Origin: a virus
Direction: 5' to 3' (one strand)
IMG/VR virus record: IMGVR_UViG_3300047476_000704
Location: 124,001-188,000 of that record
Length of the DNA: 64,000 nucleotides
In this document: positions 2,728 to 48,289 of the stretch, in pieces
Numbering within the stretch: the first letter of the stretch is position 1
Layout: every line of letters starts with the position of its first letter
Notes under the pieces: model-generated
Database searches by the model: none
What the model was told of the DNA's origin: nothing
What the model saw: the letters and a program-made list of their open reading frames with translations, nothing else
Position numbers and translations under genes: made by a program

Positions 2728-3603
2728 TTATGCTAATAAATGATAATACTCTCTAAAATGTTTCTGTCTGTCAGCCAAACCAATTGTACCGCCATTTACT
2801 CTTTTTGTAATCTTTGTTACTACTGCATCAGAACTACCTTCATCTGCTATTTTGTTCAATCCGTTTTTAGAGAAGAACCAAGCTGCTGATAATAATGCGT
2901 ATGCTCCAGCTACTTTATCTGGATTTGCTACCATATCTTCACCGATAGATTTACCAAATGCAGTATAGTTTTCTTTACCTGTCAATTGGATATATCCTCT
3001 ACCTCTGAATTTGTATCCCTCACGAGATGCTTCGTTTCCGTTACCCATTCTACTTGCATATACTCTACTTGCAATAAGTTCTGGCTTTCTTTCGTATTGT
3101 TGTGCTAATGCTACTGTTGGAAAGTATTTCTTAAATATACCCAACAAACCTTTTGCTGAATAGTTTAGATTTTCTTGTGTTGCTCTAAATCCACCACTTT
3201 CGTGTCCACATTGTGCTAAAAAGTGTGCTAATCTTAAAGGTGTGTTGATGTTAAACTTTGCAGCCGTATCAGGAATCATTGCTATTACATTAGCAGGAAT
3301 GTGTCCTTTTAATTTATCTAACTTTAAGCCAGGATACGATGCTAATGCCGGAGTAGGTGCTACAACAGGTGCAGGAGTTGGTGCAGGTGTTGGTTGTGCT
3401 ACTGGTTTAGGAACTACGGTAATACCCATAATCTTATTCCAAGTATTAGGTCCAACTATACCATCAGCTGCTAAACCATTTTTGGCTTGCCATGCTTTTA
3501 CTGCATCTTCTGTTTTTGGTCCAAAATTACCAACTGGGTCTAATCCCAATTTAACCTGTAATTTCTTTACATCTTCGTTATTATCACCCCTTTTTAACAA
3601 CAT
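2728..3603 (-). CDS. Endolysin: peptidoglycan-binding domain plus GH19 muramidase/chitinase-like domain
   Basis: Likely lysis enzyme. Residues 1-60 form a PG_binding_1 domain (repeats L-Q-x-x-L-G and D-G-I-V-G-P-N-T). Residues 62-88 are a Pro/Ala/Thr/Val linker. From about residue 90 follows a GH19 domain: catalytic Glu135 in C-G-H-E-S-G-G-F, the substrate-site segment around residues 140-190, and R-G-R-G-Y-I-Q-L-T-G. No signal peptide is visible, so release would need a holin or another route. The gene lies inside the head cluster, four bases after the protease stop region, which is unusual for a lysis gene and could mean it is also a virion component. Enzyme class is confident; timing of action is not. 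Confidence 0.9.
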   Translation of the reverse strand: MLLKRGDNNEDVKKLQVKLGLDPVGNFGPKTEDAVKAWQAKNGLAADGIVGPNTWNKIMGITVVPKPVAQPTPAPTPAPVVAPTPALASYPGLKLDKLKGHIPANVIAMIPDTAAKFNINTPLRLAHFLAQCGHESGGFRATQENLNYSAKGLLGIFKKYFPTVALAQQYERKPELIASRVYASRMGNGNEASREGYKFRGRGYIQLTGKENYTAFGKSIGEDMVANPDKVAGAYALLSAAWFFSKNGLNKIADEGSSDAVVTKITKRVNGGTIGLADRQKHFREYYHLLA

Positions 3604-3605
3604 AA

Positions 3606-4382
3606 TTATTTTCCCTCACTTTTAGCTTTCCAAGCTGCATCTACTTTATTAAAAAATGCTTTCTTTTCATCATCACTCATAGATGGAATAGATTTACCAG
3701 CTTTATCCAATACTTTTTGGAAAAACTTTTGGTATTCTGCTTCCTCTTGCATTACTTCTCTTACGATTGATTTTAATGCTTCTCTCTTTAATGATTTTTG
3801 CTTACCCATAGTTTGTGGTAACCCATTTGCTACATTTTCAATATCTTCGCTGATTTTATATTTCATTCCCAAATGCCCTTTACCCATATCTTTTACATTA
3901 AACTTTTGGTGAAATGTAGATTGTTGTGCTGCTTTTGGTGTAATATCTAAAATCCAATCATTACCATCTTTTGATAAATAGTATGCATTTTTATCACCAG
4001 TCAAAGTTCTTACGATTGCATCTTTTGATATACCTTCGGTTACCGCTTCTTTAATTTTTTTAGATGCTAATTTAGAGTCGTGTTTTGATTTATTAGATGT
4101 ATATGAACCATCACCCCACCATGCTACAATTGCATCAGTATCAGTAGTTGAATGAAACCCAGAACCTGCATTAAATACATCTACAAATTGTAATCCTTTT
4201 TTAGATTTGATTAGGTCTTTGGCAAATTGAATTGCTTGTTTTTCATTACTAAACTTTTTGGCAGCTCTTATACCATCTGAATAATGAACTTCGTATGCTT
4301 CTTGAACTTGTGCAGTTCTTGAACCAATTGGTCCACCTAATGCTTTAAGAGTAATGATGCCCGATTTTTGTAAATGTCTCAT
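3606..4382 (-). CDS. Conserved T4-like structural-region protein (258 aa)
   Basis: Function unknown. The N-terminal half (about residues 25-110) looks like a small alpha/beta domain; the last 60 residues are a helical tail ending A-F-F-N-K-V-D-A-A-W-K-A-K, a C-terminal signature I recognise from virion or head-region proteins of T4-like marine phages. The tail is preceded by a basic amphipathic helix (A-L-K-S-I-V-R-E-V-M-Q-E-E) resembling N-terminal helices of neighbouring proteins. Located between endolysin and portal-proximal genes and separated from the endolysin by two bases, so probably a minor head component. Confidence 0.75.
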   Translation of the reverse strand: MRHLQKSGIITLKALGGPIGSRTAQVQEAYEVHYSDGIRAAKKFSNEKQAIQFAKDLIKSKKGLQFVDVFNAGSGFHSTTDTDAIVAWWGDGSYTSNKSKHDSKLASKKIKEAVTEGISKDAIVRTLTGDKNAYYLSKDGNDWILDITPKAAQQSTFHQKFNVKDMGKGHLGMKYKISEDIENVANGLPQTMGKQKSLKREALKSIVREVMQEEAEYQKFFQKVLDKAGKSIPSMSDDEKKAFFNKVDAAWKAKSEGK

Positions 4383-4383
4383 A

Positions 4384-4815
4384 TTAAAAATCTATAATTG
4401 TTCTTGCTATTTTATTTAATCTTTCTTTTATACGAAAGATACTTGTGTTTGTTCTTTTGTAGAAATCCTCGTTCTTTACTCCGTTTTCCATTTTAAGTTT
4501 GTTGTACCAACCTAAAAACTTTTCTACTTCTGCTAATTGATTTTTGATTTCTCTAACACCTAAATTGATTTTTTGTTCCGGCGAACGAGTTTCATCTCTT
4601 TTAAGTGCCAACCAACGATTTTCAGCCAATTCATATCCAGCTCCAGATGATTTAGCTTTACGCTCTTTATCGGCTTGTGTATTTCTACCAAACGCAAATG
4701 GAGTTTGATACCCATCTACCGAAGCAGTTGTAGTTTCTTCGTTAGTTGTTGTATTTCTCTCACGAAGTTTTTTACGAACAATTTCCTTTAATCTATCTCT
4801 ACTAGATAATTCCAT
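4384..4815 (-). CDS. Conserved hypothetical head-region protein (143 aa)
   Basis: Unrecognised function. The N-terminus is a basic amphipathic helix (L-K-E-I-V-R-K-K-L-R-E-R), then a Thr-rich spacer, then a D-G-Y-Q-T-P-F-A-F-G motif, and a helical C-terminal half with R-E-I-K-N-Q-L-A-E-V-E-K-F-L-G-W-Y. I have seen this arrangement in other phages with a T4-like head block, always next to the portal. The 3' end of the preceding gene overlaps it by 14 bases, so the two are likely co-translated. Probable role in head assembly is inference from location. Confidence 0.75.
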   Translation of the reverse strand: MELSSRDRLKEIVRKKLRERNTTTNEETTTASVDGYQTPFAFGRNTQADKERKAKSSGAGYELAENRWLALKRDETRSPEQKINLGVREIKNQLAEVEKFLGWYNKLKMENGVKNEDFYKRTNTSIFRIKERLNKIARTIIDF

Positions 4816-5677
4816 TTTGAGTTCCCTTTAATACTTTCTCTAGCTCATACCCCATAATAACAGATGTAATATGTGTATCTGTAATTTTAGATGCCGTTTT
4901 GATTTTATTCAACTGATTGATTGTTTCAGCTAACTTTATTTTGGTAACTTTATCTTTGATTTCTTTACCAGTTTTAGTTAGTTCTTTTGTTAAAGTAACA
5001 ACTTCGTTTGTAATAAATGCTTTAAGATTATCCGAATTAGTAAATGAGTTGATATATTCTTTTAAAATACCCTTTTGCTTATCGTTTAAAGATTTGTATT
5101 TTTTATTAAAGTTTTCTACCAACATTTTATATGTTAGTAAACGGATTTCTTTATCTTCTTTTTTAAGAGCTTCGTTGATTTTATCTACCGATTTTGCATT
5201 TGCAACTGGTTTAGATGTAAGGTGTTCTACTATTGCGAATTTAGTATTCACAAAATCTTTTGGGTCATAAGAACTTTCAGTATTTAAATTAAATTCAAAT
5301 ATCTTATATACCGAAGCAAGAACTTTATAATTTGGAACTTGTGATTTTAAAAAATCATCTATTTGATAATTTTCTTTAATATCTTTGATAAGATTATACT
5401 TTTCTTTAAGTATTTTTTTCTCATCTAATTTTTTACGATTATCAATTACTGCATCAATAAATCTTTCAGCACGATTTTCATTGTTATATTTTTCATTTAC
5501 AATGAATTGATATAATTTTAATTCGTTTGCTAATTCCGTTTTAGAGTTGAAATACTTTTTTAATAATCCCTCTGCAATACTTTTACGATTGGAAAGGATG
5601 TCAGAAGTTACTTGACGAACCAATAGTTCGAAAAGAAAACCTGTATTTCTAAACTTTGAGTGCTTTATCTGTTTCAT
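4802..5677 (-). CDS. Conserved head-region protein, lysine-rich helical (291 aa)
   Basis: Starts K-H-S-K-F-R-N-T-G-F-L-F-E-L-L-V-R-Q-V, a motif conserved in a family found beside the portal gene in many T4-like phages; no function is known to me. The rest is lysine-rich and helical, with little hydrophobic core signal, consistent with an extended or scaffold-like protein. It overlaps the next gene by 14 bases. A late-type promoter motif lies at 5696-5704, so this gene begins a transcription unit that continues through the endolysin and protease. Assignment as an assembly or prohead-core factor is inference. Confidence 0.8.
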   Translation of the reverse strand: MKQIKHSKFRNTGFLFELLVRQVTSDILSNRKSIAEGLLKKYFNSKTELANELKLYQFIVNEKYNNENRAERFIDAVIDNRKKLDEKKILKEKYNLIKDIKENYQIDDFLKSQVPNYKVLASVYKIFEFNLNTESSYDPKDFVNTKFAIVEHLTSKPVANAKSVDKINEALKKEDKEIRLLTYKMLVENFNKKYKSLNDKQKGILKEYINSFTNSDNLKAFITNEVVTLTKELTKTGKEIKDKVTKIKLAETINQLNKIKTASKITDTHITSVIMGYELEKVLKGTQNGII

Positions 5678-5695
5678 TTATTACTTTATTCCAAA

Positions 5696-5704
5696 TATAA
5701 ATAT
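5696..5704 (-). promoter_or_regulatory. Predicted late promoter motif
   Basis: Sense ATATTTATA in the 50-base gap between the portal stop and the next gene, 18 bases before its start. Same motif as upstream of other structural genes here; resembles T4 late promoters in length and AT content but not in exact order of bases. A TATATTTG string overlaps it, without a matching -33 element. Confidence 0.5.
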
Positions 5705-5727
5705 ATAATATCTATTTAATAATAATT

Positions 5728-7563
5728 TTATTCGATTATATTTTGCTCATCCATCATACTCTTTCCTTCCAATATCACTTTTGCTCCACCGGATTTTAGA
5801 GTTTTTTTGATTGATTTGATGAAACTCTCATTACTTCTACTTAATTTCTTCAATTCTTTATCACCCAAAGCATCTCTACCATAGATGTGGTCATCTTTAC
5901 CCATACGATTTACATCACGAGGTCTACCTGCCGCTTTTGCTTCATTTGGATTTTGTCCCAATTTTGATTTTAAATCCTGTATTGTTTTTTCAACATCCAA
6001 TGGTTCTCCGGTTGGAAACTCATCTTCCGGCTGCTCTTCTGGTTGTTCTTCACCACCCATTTCAGGTTGTCCACCCAACATACCACCTTGCTCTTGCTGC
6101 CCCTCTGGCTTTCCAGTTGTTTCTAAATTATTTAATGTAAATAGATTTTTAGCATCTTTAATTAAACCTTCTTTCATTTCCGAAACATCATCATCGCTGA
6201 AATTAAATATATTCTTATATACCCAATCCTTTGAGATAAGTTTTAAATCACCCATTGTTCTAGCCAAATCTACTTTAGATGACCACAATTCAATTTTAGA
6301 TTGTTCATAGATTGTATATGGGATAGTCAATGATAGCTCAAAATCAGCTAATTGCTCATCCTCAATACCCTGCGAATATAAGTGAATAATTGCTATCTTT
6401 TCTAATTCAGATGTTACAATTCGTTGTACTCTTTCGATTGTTTTGGCAAATCTCATATCCATAGCTGCTAATGTAGCTTTTGAATTACCATCTTCCAAAA
6501 ATCCTAAATGTTGTTTTGGTATTTTTAATGCCGCAAACATTTTATCTTTTAAGTAGTTTATATCTTCAATAGGAGCATATTCCAAACCATCCAAATTAGA
6601 GATTTCAGTTCCACTATCACTACCACGAACTGGCAGATAGAAGTCTTCCATCAAATTTTGGATGTTATATTTTAAGTTGTATTCACCAGTATCCGCATTG
6701 ATAATTGGTGCTTTCTTTGATTTGTTGATAATACGCTGAATGTAGTTATCAATTTCGTTTGTAGGAATGTTACCCACATCAATTTTGTAAATACGCTTTT
6801 GTGGTGCTCTTGATATACGATGTATAATCATAGCATCTTCCATCAAAGTAATTTGCTTCCACAATCTTCTTGCACTTTCTAACATAGATTTACCATAAGG
6901 TAAAAAGTTAGTGTCTGTCAACATACGAAAGTGAGCAATCTCATAGTTTTCGTATTCTGTTTTTTGTCCAGCTACATAAAGTGATTTAGTTGCTAATGGG
7001 GTGTGTACAAATTTAACTGATTGCCAATTGTTCGGGTCATAACCCTCAACACGAGTAATCTCATAAACCGAAAGTGGTTGAATACCTACAACACCTAACT
7101 CTTCTGCAATCTCAATATGTAAAAAGTGGTCACCATATTTAACCAAACTTCTTACCCAAGGGAATAAATTAAATTCAACATTTATAATATCGTAGAATAA
7201 GTTTTCTAATATGGATTTTATTTGTTCGTTATTAGTTCTAACTTCTAATACTCTTCCGTATTCATTTTTGGATGTAGATTCTTCTGCATAAATATCCAAT
7301 GCGGCACCAATGATTGGGTCAGCATCCATAGCATCATAATCTCTAAAAAGTTCTTGTCTGATTTGTTGGTAAGCAAGATAATTCTCATAGGTATTATTCA
7401 TAGCCGATGAGTGTAATCTCATATATCTATCACGTAGATTGGTAGCAATTGCTTGCGTTTCATCGTAATCAATTACCTTTAACCTATCTCCCTGCTTTCT
7501 TACGATTACCGATGTAGAGAATAGTTTGTTTAACCTACCAAAAAATGATTTATCTGTTGCCAT
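5728..7563 (-). CDS. 20: Portal vertex protein, T4 gp20 family
   Basis: Forms the dodecameric ring at the head vertex through which DNA is packaged and to which the tail joins. Length 611 aa against 524 for T4 gp20. Family signatures are clear: D-P-I-I-G-A-A-L-D-I-Y-A-E-E near residue 83, V-K-Y-G-D-H-F-L, R-I-S-R-A-P-Q-K-R-I-Y-K-I-D-V, and P-K-Q-H-L-G-F-L-E-D-G-N-S-K. The extra length is at the C-terminus, where residues about 485-530 are a Gly/Pro/Gln/Glu-rich low-complexity segment followed by a basic tail. It follows the cysteine-rich protein and precedes the prohead genes, as in T4 gene order 17-20-21. Confidence 0.96.
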   Translation of the reverse strand: MATDKSFFGRLNKLFSTSVIVRKQGDRLKVIDYDETQAIATNLRDRYMRLHSSAMNNTYENYLAYQQIRQELFRDYDAMDADPIIGAALDIYAEESTSKNEYGRVLEVRTNNEQIKSILENLFYDIINVEFNLFPWVRSLVKYGDHFLHIEIAEELGVVGIQPLSVYEITRVEGYDPNNWQSVKFVHTPLATKSLYVAGQKTEYENYEIAHFRMLTDTNFLPYGKSMLESARRLWKQITLMEDAMIIHRISRAPQKRIYKIDVGNIPTNEIDNYIQRIINKSKKAPIINADTGEYNLKYNIQNLMEDFYLPVRGSDSGTEISNLDGLEYAPIEDINYLKDKMFAALKIPKQHLGFLEDGNSKATLAAMDMRFAKTIERVQRIVTSELEKIAIIHLYSQGIEDEQLADFELSLTIPYTIYEQSKIELWSSKVDLARTMGDLKLISKDWVYKNIFNFSDDDVSEMKEGLIKDAKNLFTLNNLETTGKPEGQQEQGGMLGGQPEMGGEEQPEEQPEDEFPTGEPLDVEKTIQDLKSKLGQNPNEAKAAGRPRDVNRMGKDDHIYGRDALGDKELKKLSRSNESFIKSIKKTLKSGGAKVILEGKSMMDEQNIIE

Positions 7564-7609
7564 TTAGCGTTCTGTTTGTTTAATTATATAACCTTTATTA
7601 TTTTTACTC

Positions 7610-8680
7610 TTACCACTTTCTACAAGACCAATATCTTGCTTTGTGTCTTGGACCAGGTTGGTCACAATTATGTCTTGCTCTAAAAGACCTTCTTGCATCT
7701 GGATTAGATTTTCTTATTCTCATTGTTTTTTCACCTTTAGATGCTGCCGATGTACCACCATGTCCAAAGTTTACTTTAACAACATTACCCGCTGGATTTT
7801 TAACATATACTTTGAATTTTTTAACATCGCCCCTCATTGGTTTACCCAATTTCACTTCTCTACCCCGATATTCAGCTTCAAATACACAATTGCAATTTGC
7901 TTCATCTAATGTATTTCTGTATGCTTTTAAGAACTGAATGAAATCTTCTATATCTTCTCTATCAACATCTAACTCATCGTAATCATCTTCCACCTCATTT
8001 ACAGGTACACAATTTGGAACTTGCTTTCCACCTTTATCTTTCATTCCAACTTGCTTATATCCAGTCCAACAATCTTCACATAATGCATTAGATTCACCTT
8101 CGTTACAAGTCTTCCAACCCCCACCCTTTGCTTTGTAGTTTTTTGCAGCCCAACCATTAGCATATGCGGATGGATAAACATCAAATTTTGATTTAGCTGC
8201 TGCTTTTGATGCAGACCATTTTGCCGGGTCAGTTGGACAATTCTTTTCTAAAAAAAGATTTAATTTTTCGTAGATATTCATAGTTTCATTCTTTTTCTTT
8301 CCTTGGCAATGTGCTCTTTGAGAGAAACCTTTTGGATTGTTACAATCTATACTATTTTTGTATTTTTGGCTCCAATCTTCATTTTTTGGCTTTGTAGAAA
8401 CATATATTGGTGTTTTTCCTTGCCCTTTACTATCCTTACCACCTCTATCTGCATCATTTTGTGCTGCTCTTTTTCTGCGAGTTGCACTTTCTTTTTCTTT
8501 TTTACTCATTCCGGCGGCTTTTGATGCTGGAACACATTTAGCGTATCCTTTATTTTCACCAGAAGTACCACATGGTGGATGTTTTCCATCAACTTTCTTG
8601 CCAATGTTCACCCACTTTTCTTTAAACCACTTGCGCAAGTCTTCTTTTACTATATTACGCAATTTAATATTACCATTCAT
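7610..8680 (-). CDS. Three-module cysteine-rich head-region protein
   Basis: Starts at ATG 8680 (MNGNIKLRNIVKED); an in-frame TTG two codons upstream is less likely. Three modules recognisable from separate phage proteins are joined. First, a Lys/Gly-rich segment (about 12-100) with K-H-P-P-C-G and G-Y-A-K-C-V-P followed by K-K-E-K-E-S-A-T-R-R-K. Second, a module with S-K-F-D-V-Y-P-S-A-Y-A-N-G-W-A (about 150-185) and C-E-D-C. Third, a basic C-terminal domain with V-K-L-G-K-P-M-R-G and S-F-R-A-R-H-N-C ending Y-W-S-C-R-K-W. A new start-like stretch (M-N-I-Y-E-K-L) precedes the second module. Cysteines may bind metal. Probably a virion or head-maturation protein; biochemical role unknown. Confidence 0.85.
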   Translation of the reverse strand: MNGNIKLRNIVKEDLRKWFKEKWVNIGKKVDGKHPPCGTSGENKGYAKCVPASKAAGMSKKEKESATRRKRAAQNDADRGGKDSKGQGKTPIYVSTKPKNEDWSQKYKNSIDCNNPKGFSQRAHCQGKKKNETMNIYEKLNLFLEKNCPTDPAKWSASKAAAKSKFDVYPSAYANGWAAKNYKAKGGGWKTCNEGESNALCEDCWTGYKQVGMKDKGGKQVPNCVPVNEVEDDYDELDVDREDIEDFIQFLKAYRNTLDEANCNCVFEAEYRGREVKLGKPMRGDVKKFKVYVKNPAGNVVKVNFGHGGTSAASKGEKTMRIRKSNPDARRSFRARHNCDQPGPRHKARYWSCRKW

Positions 8681-8688
8681 ATACAATA

Positions 8689-8697
8689 TATAAATAT
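8689..8697 (-). promoter_or_regulatory. Predicted late promoter motif, nearly leaderless
   Basis: Sense ATATTTATA ending 8 bases before the ATG at 8680. If transcription starts 6-8 bases downstream as at T4 late promoters, the mRNA would have almost no leader. Confidence 0.45.
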
Positions 8698-8715
8698 AAC
8701 AAAATTGAGTTTAAC

Positions 8716-10308
8716 CTATCGTAGTAACCATCTTAAATCTTCAAATCCATCACCAACGCCGGTTTGCATCTTATATGGGTCATCTCCATATTGACCTGGT
8801 GTGTATAAACTATCATGCGATGTTTGTACAAATCCATCCAATGAACTTCTAGTTAGATTGATACCTTCCTGTCTTAAACGCAAGGCAGTATCTCTAATCC
8901 ACAATCCCATTCCCAATGCCATCACCAAGTCATCGTTATAACCTCTTGCTGCTTCTGCTCTACCATTATTCCAAATAAATGTAAAGAACTCATCTATTGT
9001 TCTCTTACTATGGATAATAACACTCATATCTCGCATATAGTTATCTATCTTTGATATTACCAATGGACGAGTTTTAGATGATATACTAAATCCTGGCACC
9101 ATTTGTTTTTCATCTCTGTAAAACTTATTAGTAAATTGAGTATCAATATCTACATATTTAATATCTCTATTAGACCAGAATAGATTTTTGTAGTTTCTAT
9201 CTAAACATTGTTGGATTGTTGTCCAACCAATTGATGCGTTATCAATGATTAGTAAAGCATCGTTATATTCAGTTGCTAAATTGATTAGGAAATTACCAAA
9301 ATCTTTTGGTTCAATCTTACCTTTGTATTCTGCAACTTGCTCACAACTTTCTGCCTCTATAACATGAGCAGTAGAGTAGTCTTCCCCATCACCCCTTGCA
9401 ACGTCGGCAGTTACTATATAACTCTTTGTGTAATTTACATCTTCCCAAACCCATAAGTTATTATCAAACCCACGTCTATACATTGGTTCTTTAACATATG
9501 CTTCATTATATTTTGCTAATATTTCCGGTTGAACTACCGTTGCTCCGGAACTGATAAAGTCACAATCACATTCCTGCGCTGCTCCCTTTGGTCCCAATTG
9601 CTTTTCTTGCTCCTCTCTCCAACTTGCATCTCTTTCAGGGTGAACAGTCCAATGGAGTTTAATTGTATGGAATAAATTTTCTTTATTTTCTGCTTTTACC
9701 CAAGTTTTGTGAAACCAATTACCCATACCATTTGGTGTAGATAATGCGATACAGCTACCACCCGTTGATAGAGTAGATTGTGCCGATGTCCAAATTTCTT
9801 CAATATAATCAATAAATGCTGCCTCATCAAATACCAATAGGGATAGGGCTTCCGAACGTCCTGCGTCTGGTTTAGATGAAATTGCTTTGATTTGAGAACC
9901 ATTCTTTAATCGTAGAGATAGTTTGTTATCTTCAACCTCTGCAACTCTTAACCATACAGGTAAGAATTGATTCATTACTCTTACCTTTAATACCAAGTTT
10001 TTTGCAACCTCTTGTTTAGTTGCAATAACCAACACGTTATAATCTTCGTTAAAAATCATACACCACAATGCATAACCTGCAACTAATGTAGATATACCCA
10101 ATTGGCGGGATTTTAGAACAATATTAAAACGATTATCTTTGAAATCATTTAATACATCTTCCTGAAAGTTATATAAATCAAATGGTATTTTCCCACGAAC
10201 TGGGTGTTGGATTTTACAATACTTGCGCATAAAATAGACAGGGTCTTTAGCGCATTTTTTATATTGCTCTCTTACTGCATCTTGCAGTGATTTTGTTTGA
10301 TTGGCCAT
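8716..10308 (-). CDS. terL: Terminase large subunit, T4 gp17 family
   Basis: Motor ATPase and headful nuclease that fills the prohead. Length 530 aa (T4 gp17 is 610). ATPase: Walker A S-R-Q-L-G-I-S-T (67-74), Walker B L-L-V-F-D-E (Asp161, Glu162), coupling motif S-T-P-N-G (190-194). RNase H-like nuclease: Asp302 in V-T-A-D-V-A-R-G, Asp356 in I-I-D-N-A-S-I-G, and Asp459/460 in Y-N-D-D-L-V-M-A. All catalytic residues expected are present. A strong Shine-Dalgarno, AAGGGAGG, lies 4 bases before the ATG (plus-strand 10313-10320); few other genes here have one. Confidence 0.97.
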   Translation of the reverse strand: MANQTKSLQDAVREQYKKCAKDPVYFMRKYCKIQHPVRGKIPFDLYNFQEDVLNDFKDNRFNIVLKSRQLGISTLVAGYALWCMIFNEDYNVLVIATKQEVAKNLVLKVRVMNQFLPVWLRVAEVEDNKLSLRLKNGSQIKAISSKPDAGRSEALSLLVFDEAAFIDYIEEIWTSAQSTLSTGGSCIALSTPNGMGNWFHKTWVKAENKENLFHTIKLHWTVHPERDASWREEQEKQLGPKGAAQECDCDFISSGATVVQPEILAKYNEAYVKEPMYRRGFDNNLWVWEDVNYTKSYIVTADVARGDGEDYSTAHVIEAESCEQVAEYKGKIEPKDFGNFLINLATEYNDALLIIDNASIGWTTIQQCLDRNYKNLFWSNRDIKYVDIDTQFTNKFYRDEKQMVPGFSISSKTRPLVISKIDNYMRDMSVIIHSKRTIDEFFTFIWNNGRAEAARGYNDDLVMALGMGLWIRDTALRLRQEGINLTRSSLDGFVQTSHDSLYTPGQYGDDPYKMQTGVGDGFEDLRWLLR

Positions 10309-11645: not shown

Positions 11646-14600
11646 TTAGTAAAATATACCCAGCAACTGATTCAATGATGCAAATGCTCCAGTCATCTTA
11701 AATACATTACCTTTGTATGTAAATATAATTCCTTCATTTGGAACTATCTTATCAAATCCACCAATTGAATTTAATCTTTCTAATTCCAATTTCATTTTTT
11801 CAATTTGAGCAGGAGTGCCTTCTGCTTTTATTTTATCTATCGTTGCATCTAATCTTTTACGGATTGCTTGTAGAGCTTCGTTTGGAGATGCGGTCAATAC
11901 TGATTGCATAAATTGTAAAACTTCTGCACCCACACCTAAAAAGATTTCTTCAAATTTCATTAGGTTTTCTTTTGCAATTTTATCTTTACTTTGCTTCTCA
12001 ATACCATCAGCCCATACTCTTGCCTTCTCATCACCTATCAAATTGATACGGAATGATTTATCACCAAATGCCCATCTTTTCGTTAAACCTTCAATTTCCA
12101 ATGGTGTTAAACCTTTAGAACCTTTTTGTATAAAACTTTTCCACCAAGCCTGATGATAATCAGCTACACCAGCGTTATCTGGTAAACTAAACTCACCTTG
12201 TAATTTGGAAATCTTTGCAAGGTACTTACCTTTTTGTGAACTTAAATTTTCACTCTTTGGTAATTTTACAATAGGAGGTCCTTGTATTACATATTTAGAT
12301 TGAACGTGAGCGTTTACTTGCTTAATCATTCCTGCTAATATACTTTCAGCTCCTTTAATTTGTCCTACTGCATTTCCAGCTTCATTGTATTCAACACAAT
12401 TGTGGAATACCAATAGAGCCTGTCCATATGGAATAACATTTACGGATGTTGGATAGATAACCTCTAAATTCATAAATGCTTTACCATTCATAAATATCTT
12501 ATCCTTTTGCGCTTGAGATAATCCTCTAATAGCACTTTCCAAATCTTTCATAGCAAAGTTGTAAGCATCACTTAATGCTCCTCTACCAGCGAATTTTGCA
12601 GCCATACCAGATGCGTCCAAAGCACCTGCTCCCGCATTTGCTAAATGCCCTTTGTTTCTTGCTGCAATCAATCTACCATTCTTCCAACTTATTGCCAATG
12701 CTTGTCCATCGGTTTTTTCTCTAACAACACCCAATGAACCATCTAATGCTTTAGTAACTATATTTTTTAAATCTTTAAATGTAAGATTTATATCAGTATC
12801 AAATGGATGATGCATATGTCCATAAGCACCACCTTCGGTTAGTAAATCTTCGTTTACTTTTTTATATGGCTCGTATCCTCTTTTTTCTTTATCTTTTGTA
12901 TCAGTTTGATGACCTGGTTGTTTTTTTCGTGTGTCATCAAAATCAATCGTGTCTAATTCGGGCTCATATCCGTAATCTGGCGCATATGTTGATGTTTTGT
13001 GATGGTGATTAAAGTTATGGTCAGCCGTTCCAACTGGTTCATGGTTTTTTGTATTTATAGCTTCAAACGCACTTTTCTTTACTTTGTACCAACCACCTCC
13101 TGGTGCTCTAAATATTCTCGCCGGTATTCTAAATGTAGAACCAATTGGTAATTTACTGAAATACTTACTATCTATGTGTACTACCTTTGTAATAAACTCT
13201 TTTGTTTTATTATCAGCACCAACCAATTCAACTTCAATTTTTACCGGTTGTCCACCAATTTTGATTGTACCACCAAATATACCCTTTGTTATTTCGTTTA
13301 ATTTACCTTCTACTTGATATACAGGTGTTGATGATTTGAAATCATCTTTTCTCATTATAGTTTTAGCAATCAATTTATTTGCTTTAACCATAAATGGGAT
13401 GTTGATACCCGTTCTCTTATCTTTTACTACAAACTCGTTGTATTGTTTGATAAACTCTAAAAACTTTTTCTTATTTTTTGCTAATCTCTTAAAGAAACCA
13501 GTTAACTCTGCTGGTGATATTTCTTTGCCATTACGAGGGTCATTTAATCTTTGAAAAAAATGGTCAGTTTCTTTTCCCAAATCAACATCTTCAGGAGATA
13601 ATTGAGAGTCTGCGTATTTCTCAACCTTATCCATATCAACCTTTGCCATTTCTTTTAGCTCATTTGGAGCTTCCCAATCTTTTTCACTAATTTTACCTTC
13701 TTCTTTGTCTTTATTATATGAATCTACTGTTTTTGCCCAAACCATAGCTGGTATTGCTCCGTTCATCATATTATCGGCAAGTTGTAATGTAAACCATTCT
13801 ATATAAGTTTCATCCGTAATATTTTCTGTACCTGCGTTTATTGCTGCTTTTATAGCTCCACCAAGTATGACCTCACTTGCCATATGTTCTGCTAAATGTA
13901 CACTTAAATTACCCATCAAACCACCAACACCATGTCCTATTACTGCACCAACGCCACCCGTTACAACCATACTAGCAACCGTCAATCCAACCGTTTTACC
14001 AATTGCTATCATAGCTTTCTTTTGATTTTCATCTGGCTTTTGACCTGAAAATACTGCCTTAAATCCAGCACCAGCTACATCTAACTCATGTCCCAAATGT
14101 TTAGCTTCTCTAACTACACCCTTTACAATACCCTTTGCCTTATCACCAATCCATTTTCCAAAACTACGTCTTTCTTTTGATTGTGCTTTGTGTGCTCCTC
14201 TAAAAAATTCTTTTTCTTTAGTACTCCACTTTGATATTTTTTGATTTATATAGTTTCGTAATACTTCTGGTTTATTTACCAATGTTGAAGCAACTTTCCC
14301 AACACTAGCTTTTGCTTGTGTATTTAATCCAGTATCTTTTGGTTTTTGTGCTTTTTGCTTAACTTTTTGTAATTTTTCTTTATCAGAACCACCAGCCTTT
14401 GCAACCAACATCATTGCTGCTTTGTATGCTGGATGGTCTCTCTTATAGTTTAATGCTGAACTTACTTTAATATCTTCACCCGTCTTTGGGTTCTTTACCA
14501 ATTGGTTTAGGATTTGTGGTGAATAACCACTACCTTTTACCGATGCTTCTTTTACGATACCCTCGCCATAACCAGTATATAATCCTAAATTAACTTGATT

Positions 14601-15641
14601 TACTTTATCACTTTTTGGAGATTGTTGTCCTTTCTCTATGTTACCAGGTACTTGTCTTTTATCCATTAAAGCATGGACGTGAAGAACTCTCATTGCTTCT
14701 TGTCTTGCAAACTCCGTTCTATCTAATTGTAGAGCATCTTTAATACGATATTTCTTACCAGTTGCTGGGTCTGCGATTTCCATATTCATTATGTTATCCC
14801 AATCTACCGAATCTGGTTCGTAGTTTATATCTCCCTCAATTGTTACCAACTTATCGTAGTATTTAGGGTCTTCAAATATATGGTCTTTTGCAATCTCTGA
14901 TGCTATTCGTATATCTGTGGTGTGTTCCATTTCTACATTCACACCTTTCTTAAACTCTTTCTTTATAGTATCCAAATCCACTTTATGTTTATCAGCTATT
15001 TGTGCCAATGTCATTCCTTTAGATAATCCACCTGGTATAAACTCTTTGGTTTCGTTTAATCCTTTATTCAACATTTGGAATACATCTTTATTGTATTTAC
15101 CAAAAAACTTTTGGAATTGCTTTTCTTTTTCATCTGCTGATAAATTACTACGGAACATATTTCTCACATCGGTTGCACCAAATGAATTTGATGGAGTTTT
15201 AGAATATACATAACCCTTCGTTGAATAACCTTCCATATCCTTACCATTAGTGTATGGTTTAAAATATTGTCCACCCAATCTCATAGCATCTTTTTCTCCC
15301 AATGCTACAACTAATGCAGTATTGGTTGAGTCAAAATCACGTAGGATTTCTACGGGTTGGTATGGTGATTTTACTTGAATGAACTTTGATGGTGGGATAC
15401 CAAACACTTTAACTGCAATATCACGTTTCTGATTAAAAGAAAGTGGTGATTTACCAGAGTCTTGTACATTTGATGTTGCGATATAAACATTCTTCGCTCC
15501 AAATACGGAACATAGATGTTTGTATGTCTTATAGTGTCCTGCGTGGAATGGTTGAAATCTTCCACCATAAACTACTACCGTTTGCTTTACAGCTTCGGTT
15601 AGTAAAAAAGTTTCCACTAAATAGTTTGATAATTCATTCAT
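11646..15641 (-). CDS. Giant polyprotein: HxGH nucleotidyltransferase, middle domains, ligase-like KxDG domain
   Basis: 1331 aa. Residues 20-190 are a cytidylyl/adenylyltransferase-type domain: G-G-R-F-Q-P-F-H-A-G-H (His33, His36) and G-A-T-D-V-R-N. Around 205-260 is an M-E-H-T ... A-K-D-H domain seen in other phage proteins. A glycine-rich hydrophobic stretch (about 550-600) could insert into membrane. The C-terminal 400 residues look like a covalent nucleotidyltransferase (DNA/RNA ligase superfamily): motif I E-K-T-D-G with Lys976, motif III-like Glu1060, motif IV N-E-G-I-I-F (Glu1303), motif V F-K-M-T (Lys1315). Identical L-L-T-E sites occur at residues 13-16 and 933-936, just before each enzymatic domain, suggesting maturation by the gp21-type protease. 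Domain calls are from motifs; the processing is inference. Confidence 0.85.
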   Translation of the reverse strand: MNELSNYLVETFLLTEAVKQTVVVYGGRFQPFHAGHYKTYKHLCSVFGAKNVYIATSNVQDSGKSPLSFNQKRDIAVKVFGIPPSKFIQVKSPYQPVEILRDFDSTNTALVVALGEKDAMRLGGQYFKPYTNGKDMEGYSTKGYVYSKTPSNSFGATDVRNMFRSNLSADEKEKQFQKFFGKYNKDVFQMLNKGLNETKEFIPGGLSKGMTLAQIADKHKVDLDTIKKEFKKGVNVEMEHTTDIRIASEIAKDHIFEDPKYYDKLVTIEGDINYEPDSVDWDNIMNMEIADPATGKKYRIKDALQLDRTEFARQEAMRVLHVHALMDKRQVPGNIEKGQQSPKSDKVNQVNLGLYTGYGEGIVKEASVKGSGYSPQILNQLVKNPKTGEDIKVSSALNYKRDHPAYKAAMMLVAKAGGSDKEKLQKVKQKAQKPKDTGLNTQAKASVGKVASTLVNKPEVLRNYINQKISKWSTKEKEFFRGAHKAQSKERRSFGKWIGDKAKGIVKGVVREAKHLGHELDVAGAGFKAVFSGQKPDENQKKAMIAIGKTVGLTVASMVVTGGVGAVIGHGVGGLMGNLSVHLAEHMASEVILGGAIKAAINAGTENITDETYIEWFTLQLADNMMNGAIPAMVWAKTVDSYNKDKEEGKISEKDWEAPNELKEMAKVDMDKVEKYADSQLSPEDVDLGKETDHFFQRLNDPRNGKEISPAELTGFFKRLAKNKKKFLEFIKQYNEFVVKDKRTGINIPFMVKANKLIAKTIMRKDDFKSSTPVYQVEGKLNEITKGIFGGTIKIGGQPVKIEVELVGADNKTKEFITKVVHIDSKYFSKLPIGSTFRIPARIFRAPGGGWYKVKKSAFEAINTKNHEPVGTADHNFNHHHKTSTYAPDYGYEPELDTIDFDDTRKKQPGHQTDTKDKEKRGYEPYKKVNEDLLTEGGAYGHMHHPFDTDINLTFKDLKNIVTKALDGSLGVVREKTDGQALAISWKNGRLIAARNKGHLANAGAGALDASGMAAKFAGRGALSDAYNFAMKDLESAIRGLSQAQKDKIFMNGKAFMNLEVIYPTSVNVIPYGQALLVFHNCVEYNEAGNAVGQIKGAESILAGMIKQVNAHVQSKYVIQGPPIVKLPKSENLSSQKGKYLAKISKLQGEFSLPDNAGVADYHQAWWKSFIQKGSKGLTPLEIEGLTKRWAFGDKSFRINLIGDEKARVWADGIEKQSKDKIAKENLMKFEEIFLGVGAEVLQFMQSVLTASPNEALQAIRKRLDATIDKIKAEGTPAQIEKMKLELERLNSIGGFDKIVPNEGIIFTYKGNVFKMTGAFASLNQLLGIFY

Positions 15642-40456: not shown

Positions 40457-41742
40457 TATATTAAGTAATTAGTTTTGGATAAACACTCTTTTAACTTGTT
40501 TCCAATTTCATTAAATGGTGCTGGGTTTATTGGACCAGGTGCAGATGGCCCCGATGGTGTTGCTATTTGCATTTGAGTTATAGCATCCAAAAGTTTTGCC
40601 ATTAGATTTACCAATTTGTTTCCTAAAATCATTTGTTGGTCTACCGTACCACTTCCTAAAAATATTTTTCCGTTTTCAACTTCAAAAACAATATCTTTAG
40701 CATTTTTTGCATTAAAAAATATATCACCAGTATGTGTAGTAAAATCAATAGTGCCAGTATCTATACTAACTATATTATTAGAAAATAGAGATATATTTTT
40801 ATTTGAATACAAATACATACTATCAGCTTTACTTGATAATGTCAATCTATCACTATTGATTACAATTTGGTCACCTTGTGCCGATGCTGGAAATTTATAA
40901 GAACTTTTTGCAAAATTTACAACTGGTTTATAACTTGTTATATACTTTCCGCTTGTTATGTGTATGGATGAACCATCATTATTTATATCTTCATCGACAA
41001 TATCATATACTTTTTTAAGTCTATTATCAATTGATTCACCATTTCTTATTGTTATTGATGGGAAAAAATCACCATTTGTTCTACTATCATGCAAATAACC
41101 ACTTAAACGAATTGAATTACCAAATCTTCCCTGTATTATATTATCACCTTCTTTTAATGATAACTGATGTATTCTAACATCTCTTTTAAAATAATCACCT
41201 TGAAACCCCTTTTTTACAGTTTTTTTAGTTGCACCATTTGATTCTGTTGAATTTGCAATACCACTAGCTGCAACTTCATTTATTTGAGAAGAGTTTGTTT
41301 GCGAAATATCGCTTTCGTTTGATGTTTTTTTTGTTAAGGCTACTAATGTTTGATTGGTATTAAAATTTGGTGTATTACTATAATTAGTTAATGTATAATA
41401 AAATAAACCAGATATTTTTTGAACAAATACCATTTCACCAACCACCGGGACCATTTGGTTAGTTTTACTTAATGGATAAGCAATTGGTAGTTTATTTTCA
41501 TTTATCTCTACGGCAGATGGAAACCTAAAACGAATAGCGCCATATATATTTCCATTTTTTGTGATATATTCATTTGTTGGATATTCTTCGTATAGTTTAT
41601 CAATTGGATTTAATGTATTTTCTATAATATCATCAAATGATGTAATTACACTATGGACGATAGCAGCAGTTTCGGATTGCTTTGTTCCATATGATGTTAG
41701 AGATGATGTAGAGGTATGTCCTCTATTATATTCAAAAGCCAT
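40456..41742 (-). CDS. gp5-like baseplate spike protein (no lysozyme domain)
   Basis: 428 aa. After a ~55-residue N-terminal part, residues about 60-130 look like the OB-fold that opens gp5/VgrG-type spikes (G-N-I-Y-G-A-I-R-F-R-F-P, M-V-P-V-V-G-E-M-V-F-V). The middle and C-terminal parts have the short-strand repeats of a beta-helix spike (Y-S-N-K-N-I-S-L-F-S-N-N, then I-D-F-T-T-H-T-G-D-I-F-F-N-A). A Pro-rich segment and helix close it. T4 gp5 carries a lysozyme domain between these parts; none is seen here. Followed by the M15 peptidase gene. Confidence 0.82.
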   Translation of the reverse strand: MAFEYNRGHTSTSSLTSYGTKQSETAAIVHSVITSFDDIIENTLNPIDKLYEEYPTNEYITKNGNIYGAIRFRFPSAVEINENKLPIAYPLSKTNQMVPVVGEMVFVQKISGLFYYTLTNYSNTPNFNTNQTLVALTKKTSNESDISQTNSSQINEVAASGIANSTESNGATKKTVKKGFQGDYFKRDVRIHQLSLKEGDNIIQGRFGNSIRLSGYLHDSRTNGDFFPSITIRNGESIDNRLKKVYDIVDEDINNDGSSIHITSGKYITSYKPVVNFAKSSYKFPASAQGDQIVINSDRLTLSSKADSMYLYSNKNISLFSNNIVSIDTGTIDFTTHTGDIFFNAKNAKDIVFEVENGKIFLGSGTVDQQMILGNKLVNLMAKLLDAITQMQIATPSGPSAPGPINPAPFNEIGNKLKECLSKTNYLI

Positions 41743-41743
41743 T

Positions 41744-42160
41744 TTACTTTATCCCTCTTCTTAAATTTTCTAATTCTTCTTCTATTTCCTCTAACTTTTC
41801 ATCAGTCTTTTGCTCAATCTTCAACGCAGTATCTTCAACTTCTGCCATCAACTCTTTTCTTTCTTCTTCACTCATAAATCCAACTTCACCAGCGCTTTTA
41901 CCTTCCGCAAGAATCAATCGTTGAGCAATAGTTGCCATCTTAACTAAATGGTCATCATTACTAATTGATGAATTGATTAACGCTGTAATCATTGGTGTCA
42001 ATTGTATAGCATCTTGTGGATTACGAATCAATTTCCGTAGTTCCTCAATAAGACCTGAAATGTTTTTCTTTTTACCTTGCTGGTTTTCGTATATATCTTT
42101 TAATAGGGAAGAAAATGATTTTCCCTTAAAGATTTCAAAATCCATATCAATATTACCCAT
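41744..42160 (-). CDS. Conserved structural-block protein with C-terminal coiled coil (138 aa)
   Basis: Start taken at ATG 42160 (MGNIDMDFEIFKGK); a longer in-frame reading to 42217 would run through a promoter motif and the terminator region. Residues 8-40 (F-E-I-F-K-G-K-S-F-S-S-L-L-K-D-I-Y-E-N-Q) are a conserved phage motif; the last 45 residues are a glutamate-rich coiled coil. First gene of the spike operon, two bases before the next start. Could be a tail-completion or chaperone factor; unknown. Confidence 0.78.
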   Translation of the reverse strand: MGNIDMDFEIFKGKSFSSLLKDIYENQQGKKKNISGLIEELRKLIRNPQDAIQLTPMITALINSSISNDDHLVKMATIAQRLILAEGKSAGEVGFMSEEERKELMAEVEDTALKIEQKTDEKLEEIEEELENLRRGIK

Positions 42161-42177
42161 AATAACTCTTTGTTTAG

Positions 42178-42186
42178 TATAAATAT
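42178..42186 (-). promoter_or_regulatory. Predicted late promoter of the spike operon
   Basis: Sense CTAATATTTATA, 17 bases before the ATG at 42160 and directly after the terminator of the sigma-factor gene. Nearly the same 12 bases precede the plus-strand gene at 55995. Confidence 0.58.
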
Positions 42187-42199
42187 TAGACATAGAAAA

Positions 42200-42220
42200 A
42201 AGGTGGTATAAGACCACCTT
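42200..42220 (-). terminator. Rho-independent terminator after the sigma-factor gene
   Basis: Stem AAGGTGGT/ACCACCTT (plus 42200-42207 and 42213-42220), 5-base loop, followed on the minus strand by TTTTTC. Ends the deformylase-sigma operon immediately before the late spike operon. Confidence 0.88.
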
Positions 42221-42224
42221 CTAA

Positions 42225-42953
42225 CTATCGCTTAATTGTTTTTGCCCAAAATGGGTCTCTTTCATCGTCCATTATATCACCTTCATCCAAAAATTGGTCA
42301 TATAATCTAACTTGCGTTTCTTTCATTTTGGCCACAACCTTTGTAATGTAATGCGTTTTGTGACCAGTCATTTCCCTAACTAAAAGATATAATGATTTTT
42401 TATTGAAACTTTCAATATATTCTGCTCTACGAAATAACTCTAAAATAGAATCTGCAATTTGAATATCTCTTTTCTTTGTAAAAATACGATTTAAATTCTC
42501 ATCCCAATATTCGAGCATTCTATCGTTAAAGATTTTGAACTCTTCATTGTGAGTTGTTTCTTTGAAATCATTTTCAGGATTCCAATTCTCTGGCATCTCT
42601 GAAATCTTTGATGTACTTTTGTATCTTTTGTAATTAGAATTGTTATTTAAGATTAAATAGTTTCTAACTGCAATTGTAAAGTATGAGAATGCTTTTCCTT
42701 TATCTTGTTGGTATTTGTGAATTTTTTCCAATAAGAAAGAAATGACTTCTTGTTTCGTATCTTCTTTATCATCATCAAAGTAAGTAAACTTCCAAGTGTT
42801 TAAAACATTCTCCGCTAACTTATAAAAAGAATAGTAGATGTGGTCTCTAAACAATCGGTTTCGTTCTCTTTCATCCGTTGAGTTATTATAAGCAATGATG
42901 GCTGCTTCCGTTTCTTCCGTAAAGTAACGGGTATCTTTTTTCTTCCTTCCCAC
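42225..42953 (-). CDS. 55: Late-transcription sigma factor, T4 gp55-like
   Basis: 242 aa (T4 gp55 185 aa). It has the region-2-like segment of the family: L-F-R-D-H-I-Y-Y-S-F-Y-K-L-A-E-N, then D-D-K-E-D-T-K-Q-E-V-I-S-F-L-L-E-K-I and A-F-S-Y-F-T-I-A-V-R-N-Y-L-I-L, which corresponds to core binding and -10 recognition. The C-terminal half is helical with a region (Y-L-L-V-R-E-M-T-G-H-K-T-H-Y-I-T-K-V) that may be a DNA-binding helix. It should direct host polymerase to late promoters, probably the ATATTTATA motif here. It is itself behind host-type transcription. Confidence 0.88.
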   Translation of the reverse strand: MGRKKKDTRYFTEETEAAIIAYNNSTDERERNRLFRDHIYYSFYKLAENVLNTWKFTYFDDDKEDTKQEVISFLLEKIHKYQQDKGKAFSYFTIAVRNYLILNNNSNYKRYKSTSKISEMPENWNPENDFKETTHNEEFKIFNDRMLEYWDENLNRIFTKKRDIQIADSILELFRRAEYIESFNKKSLYLLVREMTGHKTHYITKVVAKMKETQVRLYDQFLDEGDIMDDERDPFWAKTIKR

Positions 42954-43225
42954 TATTCCTCCTCTTTTTTACCAAACTCCGAATTTAATAGTTGTTCGTT
43001 TCTCTCTACTATTTCTTTCAAATCTGCAAATACAGAACCTACTTCATCATCGGATTCAAATGCTCCTGTGGAATCTATCTCTTTCATAGTAGTATAAATT
43101 CCTCTGAATATGTTTAAATTGCTTTCAATCTCATCTTCCAAAACTTCCAACTTACGAAATAAGTTATAGTTCACATATATAGAACAAATTAGAAGCGAAG
43201 ATATTATAAATGTAGTTACTATCAT
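42953..43225 (-). CDS. Small membrane-anchored protein (90 aa)
   Basis: One N-terminal transmembrane segment (about 3-20, T-T-F-I-I-S-S-L-L-I-C-S-I) followed by a charged helical cytoplasmic or periplasmic part with F-E-S-D-D-E-V-G-S-V-F-A-D-L, a motif I recognise from T4-like phage membrane proteins next to gp55. Function unknown. One-base overlap with the sigma gene and two bases after deformylase. Confidence 0.8.
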   Translation of the reverse strand: MIVTTFIISSLLICSIYVNYNLFRKLEVLEDEIESNLNIFRGIYTTMKEIDSTGAFESDDEVGSVFADLKEIVERNEQLLNSEFGKKEEE

Positions 43226-43227
43226 AA

Positions 43228-43845
43228 TTAAATTACTTCATATCCCATTTGTAGGTACTCTTGAACTTTCTTTTTCTTAACCATTTCCGTTTTACCTTGT
43301 GGGGATTTTAACATTAACTTTTCATTTCTACCCAAAGTTTCGTAAGCAGTTTTGTGAACAGTTGTTGTATATTGTCTATCACGAATAGTTAAACCATTTA
43401 AATGGTCAATCTCATGCTGAACACAAATTGCTTCTAACAAATCAACATCATCCATTAACTCATAACCATCTTTGTATTCTCTACGATGTGTACCAAAGTG
43501 TAACTCTTCCGAATAGTTATCAGCTTTAATAGTAACCTCATAGTTACGAATTGTTTTTAATGGTTTTTCTAATGTTTTTGGAATAGATAAACAACCTTCT
43601 AAATAGATTACAGTATCCTCACTACTTTTAACAATAGTTGGATTAACCAAAATCATAGGTTCTTCTCTTACATTGATTACACAAATTCTTTTATTTAATC
43701 CAATTTGGTTAGCACTCATACCTAAACACTTATGTTCTGCGATAGCAGTTAAAAGTGCAGCAGATGCTAACTCTTGTTCAATCTTACTAAATTTAGTATT
43801 AGCGATTGGTTGTTTTAACGCATGAATATCTGTTACTAATTTCAT
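43228..43845 (-). CDS. def: Peptide deformylase
   Basis: Removes the formyl group from nascent N-terminal methionine. 205 aa. All three family motifs are present: G-M-S-A-N-Q-I-G (42-49), E-G-C-L-S (metal ligand Cys85), Q-H-E-I-D-H-L (His144, Glu145, His148). A ~15-residue insertion before the H-E-x-x-H helix and a basic C-terminal tail (about 180-205) exceed the minimal phage enzyme. Known in marine cyanophages, where it is thought to keep co-translational maturation going; no partner is visible here except the downstream sigma operon. Confidence 0.95.
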   Translation of the reverse strand: MKLVTDIHALKQPIANTKFSKIEQELASAALLTAIAEHKCLGMSANQIGLNKRICVINVREEPMILVNPTIVKSSEDTVIYLEGCLSIPKTLEKPLKTIRNYEVTIKADNYSEELHFGTHRREYKDGYELMDDVDLLEAICVQHEIDHLNGLTIRDRQYTTTVHKTAYETLGRNEKLMLKSPQGKTEMVKKKKVQEYLQMGYEVI

Positions 43846-43870
43846 TTCTTTTATTTTTTATTTACTTTTA

Positions 43871-43902
43871 CAAATATACAACTTTTAATTGGGTTTACCA
43901 AA
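43871..43902 (-). promoter_or_regulatory. Host-type promoter for deformylase-sigma operon
   Basis: Sense TTTG, 20 bases, TATATTTG, ending 26 bases before the deformylase ATG. Full match to the Bacteroidota sigma-A consensus. Confidence 0.7.
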
Positions 43903-43916
43903 TAATTGTTAGGTTT

Positions 43917-44567
43917 TTAATAATCATAGTGAGAGTGTCTATCTCTGAACAATGCAAAATCAATCATTCTTTCTCGTTTTATTTTATCTTGCAAACCTTT
44001 TTCGTTTATATGTTCCCAAAAGTTTTGCTCACTCCTATCTATAAATTGAGAATGTAAATGTTTGTTGTAGTAATTTGTAAACAAATCAGAATAAACCTTT
44101 ACATAGTTTTCATAACTACTTATTCCCCAACTATCATCCCACATATGTGAACCAGCCCAAGCTGCTTCTGATACATAAATGAAATCTTTATCTAATTGTG
44201 TAAAATCTATTTTGTGTCTGAAAAATATATCGTATCTAGTTCTAATAACAAAATCATAGTGTGTATTAGTTTCATCTACATATTCTTTTAGAACATCACA
44301 TCCACCTTGCGTTGAATACCACATTGGTGCATTGTTTTGGAATTTAGGTAAACCCGTTTTGCCAATGTAATAATCTTCAAAGTTGTTTTGTGGTTCAACT
44401 TTTACTCTCTTAAAATCATAACAATCAAAACACTCTGTTATTACACCACTATGCCAAATATGCCCAAATACATCAACATCGTTTCCATCCAATATATTTT
44501 GTTGGAATGAATTAAAGTTTTCTTTTACATGCCGAGGTTGGCCATAAAATACTAATGCTATTTTCAT
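43917..44567 (-). CDS. Predicted glycosyltransferase-like protein (216 aa)
   Basis: Begins M-K-I-A-L-V-F-Y-G-Q-P-R-H-V, a nucleotide-sugar-binding start seen in a family of uncharacterised GT-A-like proteins, and contains F-V-I-R-T-R-Y-D-I-F-F (about 105-116), whose R-x-R-Y-D motif stands where the D-x-D metal motif of GT-A enzymes occurs. No membrane segment. Last gene of the sugar cassette; overlaps the previous gene by 4 bases (ATGA). Acceptor unknown: phage DNA, virion protein or host surface glycan are all possible. Confidence 0.75.
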   Translation of the reverse strand: MKIALVFYGQPRHVKENFNSFQQNILDGNDVDVFGHIWHSGVITECFDCYDFKRVKVEPQNNFEDYYIGKTGLPKFQNNAPMWYSTQGGCDVLKEYVDETNTHYDFVIRTRYDIFFRHKIDFTQLDKDFIYVSEAAWAGSHMWDDSWGISSYENYVKVYSDLFTNYYNKHLHSQFIDRSEQNFWEHINEKGLQDKIKRERMIDFALFRDRHSHYDY

Positions 44568-44998
44568 TTGTAATTATTTATATAATCTGAACATACACCT
44601 ATACACTCCGAAATACTTTCGTTATGGATTTCAGGCATTACTGCAATACTACCAACTATTGGTTGTTTACCCGAATGAACCCACATATAGTTTTTTGATG
44701 TTAAAACCATAGTATCGTTTTCATGCCAAAAGTAATTAAATAACCCCATCATATTAAACCACTCTATTGCTTCAACATTTTTACAATGTATCCACAATTT
44801 TTCATAACGAGTGCTTAACCAATTCCATATAACTTTATATTGGGGTTCATCGTGACCTAAATAAAATTCATTATCAATCATCCACACATCAATTTCCACA
44901 TCGAATCCAGCGTTAATTGCTTCATCAATGTAATCTGGATGATTTTCGTTGTTGGGTATTCTACCAGTTAGATTTCCTCTATGAGATATGAGTATCAT
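44564..44998 (-). CDS. Glycerophosphodiester phosphodiesterase-like protein (144 aa, short)
   Basis: N-terminus I-S-H-R-G-N (His6, Arg7) and V-E-I-D-V-W (Glu/Asp about 35-37) followed by L-G-H-D-E-P match the active-site pattern of GDPD TIM-barrel enzymes. At 144 aa it is about half the usual length, so part of the barrel is missing; such short GDPD-like proteins also occur in sugar clusters of bacteria. May cut a phosphodiester in a glycan precursor. Overlaps the cupin gene by 20 bases. Fold is likely, activity uncertain. Confidence 0.78.
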   Translation of the reverse strand: MILISHRGNLTGRIPNNENHPDYIDEAINAGFDVEIDVWMIDNEFYLGHDEPQYKVIWNWLSTRYEKLWIHCKNVEAIEWFNMMGLFNYFWHENDTMVLTSKNYMWVHSGKQPIVGSIAVMPEIHNESISECIGVCSDYINNYK

Positions 44999-47117: not shown

Positions 47118-47118
47118 A

Positions 47119-47646: not shown

Positions 47647-47648
47647 AC

Positions 47649-48287: not shown

Positions 48288-48289
48288 AT

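Follow-up and report, generated by a model that had tools for sequence, protein, structure and literature searches.

The polyprotein gene and its features

The DNA analysed here, the window, is a 64,000-nucleotide stretch covering positions 124001-188000 of the 194,856-bp viral record IMGVR_UViG_3300047476_000704, and its phage is judged to be T4-like from its S77 prohead protease, its terminase and its portal (Portal_T4). A single open reading frame (ORF) at 11646-15641, on the minus strand, encodes a 1331-residue polyprotein with a nucleotidyltransferase-type domain at each end and a predicted prohead protease site before each of them. From the N-terminus, with all coordinates on the minus strand, the chain consists of a predicted capsid-targeting leader (residues 1-16, MNELSNYLVETFLLTE; 15594-15641) with a predicted cut after E16 (cuts are marked ↓ below), a domain resembling nicotinamide mononucleotide (NMN) adenylyltransferases (NMNAT-like; residues 17-206, 15024-15593) with the HxGH motif as HAGH at 33-36, a DUF5661 module (residues 214-269, 14835-15002; Pfam E 1.2e-13), a conserved phrog_14518-like module that is a separate protein in other phages (around residues 652-786, 13284-13688), a second predicted cleavage site, VNEDLLTE↓GG (residues 929-936, 12834-12857; cut after E936), and a ligase-like covalent nucleotidyltransferase domain (residues 937-1331, 11649-12833; K976, R995, E1060, E1303 and K1315).

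The domains, their linkage in one chain, the conserved sites and the protease gene can be read directly from the DNA. An earlier, sequence-only reading of this ORF had given its coordinates, its length and its key residues (H33-A-G-H36, LLTE at 13-16 and 933-936, EKTDG with K976, EGIIF with E1303, and K1315) correctly; it had left the minus strand unstated and overlooked the DUF5661 and phrog_14518-like modules.

Predicted cleavage sites and packaging precedents

A T4 gp21 homologue of the Peptidase_S77 family (Pfam E 2.3e-26; blastp with T4 gp21 E 3.5e-26), the predicted cutting enzyme, is encoded in the same window at 2140-2724 on the minus strand. The L/I-X-E rule and the targeting function were established in T4 (PMC9026906), and sites read from the T4 record have the same form as those of the polyprotein (IpII/IpIII MKTYQEFIAE↓A, gp23 FLTE↓A and gp24 ELLRE↓S). 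The major capsid protein of the record's phage contains a plausible predicted site, LLDE62↓T, which is kept as a prediction because the alignment to gp23 is loose there.

The junction was compared in 47 linkers with a mutual identity below 50%. The pattern [LI]-x-E was observed at positions -3 to -1 of the ligase core in 44 of them, compared with about 1% at each position elsewhere in the linker. The linkers cannot otherwise be aligned, and the glutamate at P1 stands out as their best conserved residue; the fuller junction consensus is [IVL]-x-E-[SG]-[LI]-[LI]-x-E. The same [LI]-x-E is held by all 22 non-redundant N-terminal leaders. In addition, a weight matrix trained on the ligase junction only, with its threshold set to give 0.1 hits per 1000 residues of shuffled sequence, found the N-terminal site in many relatives (VETFLLTE↓A or LVESILxE↓A) and extra sites near module borders in some. 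Stand-alone ligases also begin with a [LI]-x-E leader, and a 28%-identical stand-alone relative has AINE↓GG. A genome-wide count of N-terminal leaders gave a weak enrichment (10.9% vs 4.6%), which is not the main evidence. The matching LLTE sites to which the sequence-only reading had drawn attention fit (L/I)-x-E and, by these counts and the cross-prediction by the matrix, are conserved far beyond chance. From these patterns, cutting of the 1331-residue protein after E16 and E936 is strongly predicted.

NMNAT-like proteins have been detected in the virions of the cyanophages S-CREM2 (3 peptides, 11.2% coverage; PMC10665884) and S-SCSM1 (PMC9602691). The leaders of these two homologues, MKNFSSFLTE↓A and MKSFLQFLKE↓A, are remarkably similar to that of T4 IpIII, and the pattern MKxFxxFLxE↓A also occurs in several other cyanophages, the short P-HM2 and S-RIM32 forms being without it. 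The sites, the gp21-type protease and virion homologues with the same kind of leader all support the earlier suggestion of a two-enzyme chain that is targeted to the prohead and cut there, of which the cutting is predicted.

Like the gp21-processed internal head proteins of T4 (IPI-III and Alt), the polyprotein has a short leader ending in [L/I]-x-E, a gp21-type protease and a head-gene neighbourhood. Unlike them, it is not made from separate genes: its enzymes share one chain with an extra internal site before the last enzyme, and its packaging is a prediction. It also resembles the polyvalent proteins (Iyer et al. 2017, PMC5512222) in its many effector-like domains per chain, its varying content and its late-gene context. 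Those proteins were described as containing a peptidase domain within the chain for their release, which is common but not universal (PMC5512222), whereas the sites here fit the phage's own prohead protease and a Pfam scan of the 1331-residue protein found no embedded peptidase domain. The text of that paper mentions neither NMNAT nor cytidylyltransferase. Delivery of the polyprotein into the host with the DNA is suggested by the leader alone.

Two paired nucleotidyltransferase domains and a variable middle

In Pfam and PHROG profile searches, residues of about 17-206 matched CTP_transf_like and phrog_395, and a profile from 20 relatives matched NadM-type and archaeal NMN adenylyltransferases (2qjt, E 3.5e-6; 1f9a, E 5.6e-6). 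The AlphaFold2 model of this domain (pLDDT, the predicted local distance difference test score, 85) had E. coli NadD as its best fold match (E 1.3e-5), and the HxGH motif and a Rossmann-type HIGH fold were both present, so that the modelled fold is of the NMN/NaMN (nicotinic acid mononucleotide) adenylyltransferase type. Homology to the cyanophage cytidyltransferase gene (phrog_395) was found with hhalign (E 5.7e-11). The domain shares the GRFQPFHxGH motif and the fold with NadD, NadM and phrog_395, but it is without a Nudix or kinase partner, and the window copy has GATDVR in place of the SGTDVR of its relatives. Because it also scores below the curated NMNAT family cut-offs, it is named only NMNAT-like.

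For residues 930-1331, no Pfam family match and no plausible PDB sequence match were found; the PDB-sequence matches returned by profile searches with this domain, such as ribosomal eS6, were chance-like and were rejected. In viruses, at least 582 members were confirmed among the 599 pattern matches listed. In cellular genomes, the family was found at 8 loci among 84,980 species, all on contigs of metagenome-assembled genomes that are probably viral. The ligase-like proteins are regarded as a large, almost purely viral and uncharacterised family of covalent nucleotidyltransferases on hundreds of viral contigs.

The domain was modelled from an alignment of the window and viral-contig rows only (pLDDT 88; predicted template modelling score, pTM, 0.85). 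The first 12 residues, with the LLTE segment, were disordered in the model, and a large helical insertion lies between motifs III and IV. Each of the 14 best PDB folds in the search belonged to a ligase, and RNA ligases (archaeal Rnl, T4 Rnl2 and T4 Rnl1) accounted for 12; 3qwu, labelled as a DNA ligase, and capping enzymes were also among the matches. In about 130 relatives, E975, D978, G979, R995, E1060, E1303, G1304 and K1315 were invariant or nearly so, and K976 was absent in only two rows, both with the motif split by an intein. Down to 28% identity, motifs I (KxDG), III, IV (EG) and V (K) stayed invariant, as did the arginine that follows the lysine at a distance of 19 residues.

T4 Rnl2 has its corresponding residues at K35 and R55, 20 residues apart. 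The order of the fold and motifs I, III, IV and V are shared with the ATP-dependent RNA ligases (T4 Rnl1, Rnl2 and archaeal Rnl), but the family differs from them in the lack of a significant sequence match, in the helical insertion and in being obligately paired with an NMNAT-like domain. The predicted C-terminal fold resembles RNA ligases best, at weak E-values, and an RNA ligase activity is plausible. Structure prediction and fold search at both ends, the check proposed in the sequence-only reading, gave folds related to nucleotidyltransferases, NadD-like at the N-terminus and, weakly but consistently, RNA-ligase-like at the C-terminus, in agreement with its assignment of both ends.

Two relatives (their loci carry L numbers here) account for the split motif. 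In L043 (about 4700-5170) a continuous intein separates the catalytic lysine from TDG, exactly at their border. The same point in L040 (about 3180-4320) is occupied by intein halves that belong to separate ORFs and flank a further reading frame, an arrangement that may represent a split intein plus a homing endonuclease. Inteins favour the active sites of important enzymes, and their position at the catalytic lysine therefore supports a functional ligase-like domain.

The two ends are closely paired. From the ligase side, 72 of 83 closed ORFs also carried the nucleotidyltransferase domain; from the nucleotidyltransferase domain alone, 77 of 80 loci had the ligase in the same ORF and one in another ORF of the locus, the other two being truncated. 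In Microcystis phage Mel-JY01 the two domains are fused directly (639 residues), and in L165 their order is reversed. The ligase-like domain is better conserved than the NMNAT-like domain, and it also occurs in stand-alone proteins.

A similar arrangement was observed in cyanophage loci (L144, L145, L147, L148, L151 and L152), where DUF6267 with KxDG, EG and K motifs is encoded directly before the cytidyltransferase gene; phrog_455 spans both, and tblastn gave DUF6267 matches in 466 phage records. A full-text literature search found no paper on DUF6267. The motif order and the gene pair or fusion with the same nucleotidyltransferase family are common to DUF6267 and the ligase-like family, while DUF6267 is encoded in the replication region and the inspected example is without an LxE leader. 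The Pfam search linking DUF6267 (PF19782) to the ligase-like domain gave no match, and the families were not merged because none of three profile-profile comparisons was significant. A BFVD match of the ligase-like domain to an S-PM2 cytidyltransferase-like protein is taken as a lead only.

The middle of the chain varies, and relatives range from 644 to 1918 residues in total length (stop to stop). A CCA-adding enzyme module was found in L127, L133-L135, L048 and L228, with a fragment seen by eye in L163, and other middle modules were HD, a polynucleotide-kinase-like ATPase (L048) and GNAT (L116). A full-text literature search found no paper linking DUF5661 with phage. Regions of the polyprotein middles of relatives recur in five separate proteins of the record's phage, some of which have [LI]-x-E leaders, indicating that the polyprotein and separate genes exchange modules. 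In L048 (3400-4320) the CCA-adding module is broken by an insert, possibly an intron, whose translation is GIY-YIG endonuclease-like. In the same locus (4317-9203), residues of about 630-1200 form a repeated module with copies starting near VINELAW or VLNELAW, each with an [LI]xE-like site.

Other minus-strand genes of the window encode separate proteins with similar leaders. The protein at 7610-8680 (leader MNGNIKLRNIVKE) has a part that recurs in the middle of the polyprotein of L015, and those at 667-1176 (MIKLSDLLNE) and 1181-1906 (MIKLKKLLGE) are possibly capsid-targeted. A cassette in the late region, at 43917-50281, appears by eye to be sugar- or surface-polysaccharide-like, with glycosyltransferase-, sugar nucleotidyltransferase- and acetyltransferase-like genes.

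Proposed role and alternatives

From its sequence, the polyprotein is strongly predicted to be polyvalent cargo that is processed in the prohead and contains a tight pair of nucleotidyltransferases. The reading we favour, at a probability of about 0.62, is a T4-type cargo protein whose two enzymes act at infection, most likely in RNA repair and NAD or adenylyl chemistry; its packaging, cutting, injection, substrates and role are what we infer. The leader (residues 1-16) would direct the chain to the prohead core. As the head matures, cuts by the gp21-type S77 protease after E16 and after E936 would release the NMNAT-type adenylyltransferase, together with the middle modules, and the C-terminal enzyme with its RNA-ligase-like fold. 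These parts would remain in the capsid and enter the cell alongside the DNA, where both nucleotidyltransferases would work together ahead of phage transcription. Most probably they would at once mend RNA that the host has cut and would also carry out NAD+ or other adenylyl chemistry, countering defences that cut tRNA or deplete NAD.

The gene content of the record is relevant to this role. A T4 Rnl1-type RNA ligase (PF09511, E 9.5e-19) is encoded at 60864-62015, close to a polynucleotide-kinase-like AAA_33 protein at 62283-62666, and the two make up the classic tRNA-repair pair. Record positions 41651-47275 and 49281-49670 (L140:1651-7275 and L140:9281-9670), which lie beyond the window, contain about 25 tRNA genes and a transfer-messenger RNA (tmRNA; Rfam RF00023, E 1.1e-32). 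The ligase, the kinase-like protein, the tRNAs and the tmRNA indicate that the phage invests in RNA supply and repair, and a packaged ligase could cover the interval before its own RNA-repair genes are expressed. The RNA-end enzyme modules of the relatives, though a minority, also point to RNA repair. An RNA-repair and NAD role is plausible, and it narrows the NAD- or nucleotide-linked repair or defence evasion of the sequence-only reading. PADLOC gave no match.

Several observations weigh against this reading. The fold matches of the ligase-like domain are weak (best E 0.09, none at or below 0.001), its sequence and profile searches gave no RNA ligase match, and RNA-repair modules occur in few loci only. 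The reported virion detections concern homologues of the first domain and not the fused form, and according to their authors carry-over cannot be excluded. In addition, the junction glutamate is replaced by Cys in L043 and L048 and by Met in L164 and L167, and L058 is without the site.

The weakness of the fold matches, the DNA ligase and capping enzymes among them, the helical insertion without a Pfam match and a close, obligate pairing with an adenylyltransferase that is atypical of known RNA ligases would all agree with a packaged and cut protein whose C-terminal domain serves another purpose, such as DNA nick sealing, RNA or protein adenylylation or capping, or use of the NMNAT-like product. 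This is unlikely in our view, given the predominance of RNA ligases among the best folds and the CCA-adding, HD and kinase partners in some relatives. Less probable still is a packaged NAD+-restoring protein, in which NAD-depleting defences are countered by the NMNAT-like domain and the ligase-like domain plays a secondary part, for example as an NAD consumer or a binding domain. The NadD/NadM-like fold and motifs, the NMNAT-like proteins in cyanophage virions and the proposal of phage NAD+ synthesis as a counter-defence (PMC9503650, PMC7824862) favour it, but no NAPRTase was found in a search of the record, the scores lie under the NMNAT cut-offs, and it is the ligase-like domain that shows the stronger conservation and that also occurs alone.

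That the polyprotein works uncut as a single multidomain enzyme, with the LLxE segments serving only for targeting or fold stability, is considered improbable. Cutting is a prediction from sequence, a few relatives are without the junction glutamate, and the N4 virion RNA polymerase is a large packaged protein that is kept whole (PMC5512222); on the other side stand the conservation of the P1 glutamate, the disorder of the LLTE segment in the model and the same segment used as a leader by stand-alone ligases. An assembly or frameshift artefact joining separate genes has a negligible probability and was rejected, since the same fusion recurs on independent contigs: the 72 closed ORFs are spread over many of them, and Microcystis phage Mel-JY01, which has been sequenced, also has it.

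A wider proposal, that T4-like phages as a class widely carry a capsid-borne RNA-repair and NAD kit active before gene expression, with an NMNAT-type enzyme, a new RNA ligase family and exchangeable CCA-adding, HD, kinase or GNAT cargo, is put forward tentatively and as rather doubtful. If the favoured reading of a packaged and processed cargo protein holds, enzymes for repair or counter-defence reach the cell before the phage switches on any of its genes. The packaged effectors of T4, single proteins tagged with a leader, would then be extended to exchangeable precursors of several enzymes with built-in cut sites, and this would offer a mechanism for the NMNAT-like proteins in cyanophage proteomes, where they have no known role. 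With the leader and junction pattern as a simple rule, the proteins that such phages may inject can also be predicted from sequence.

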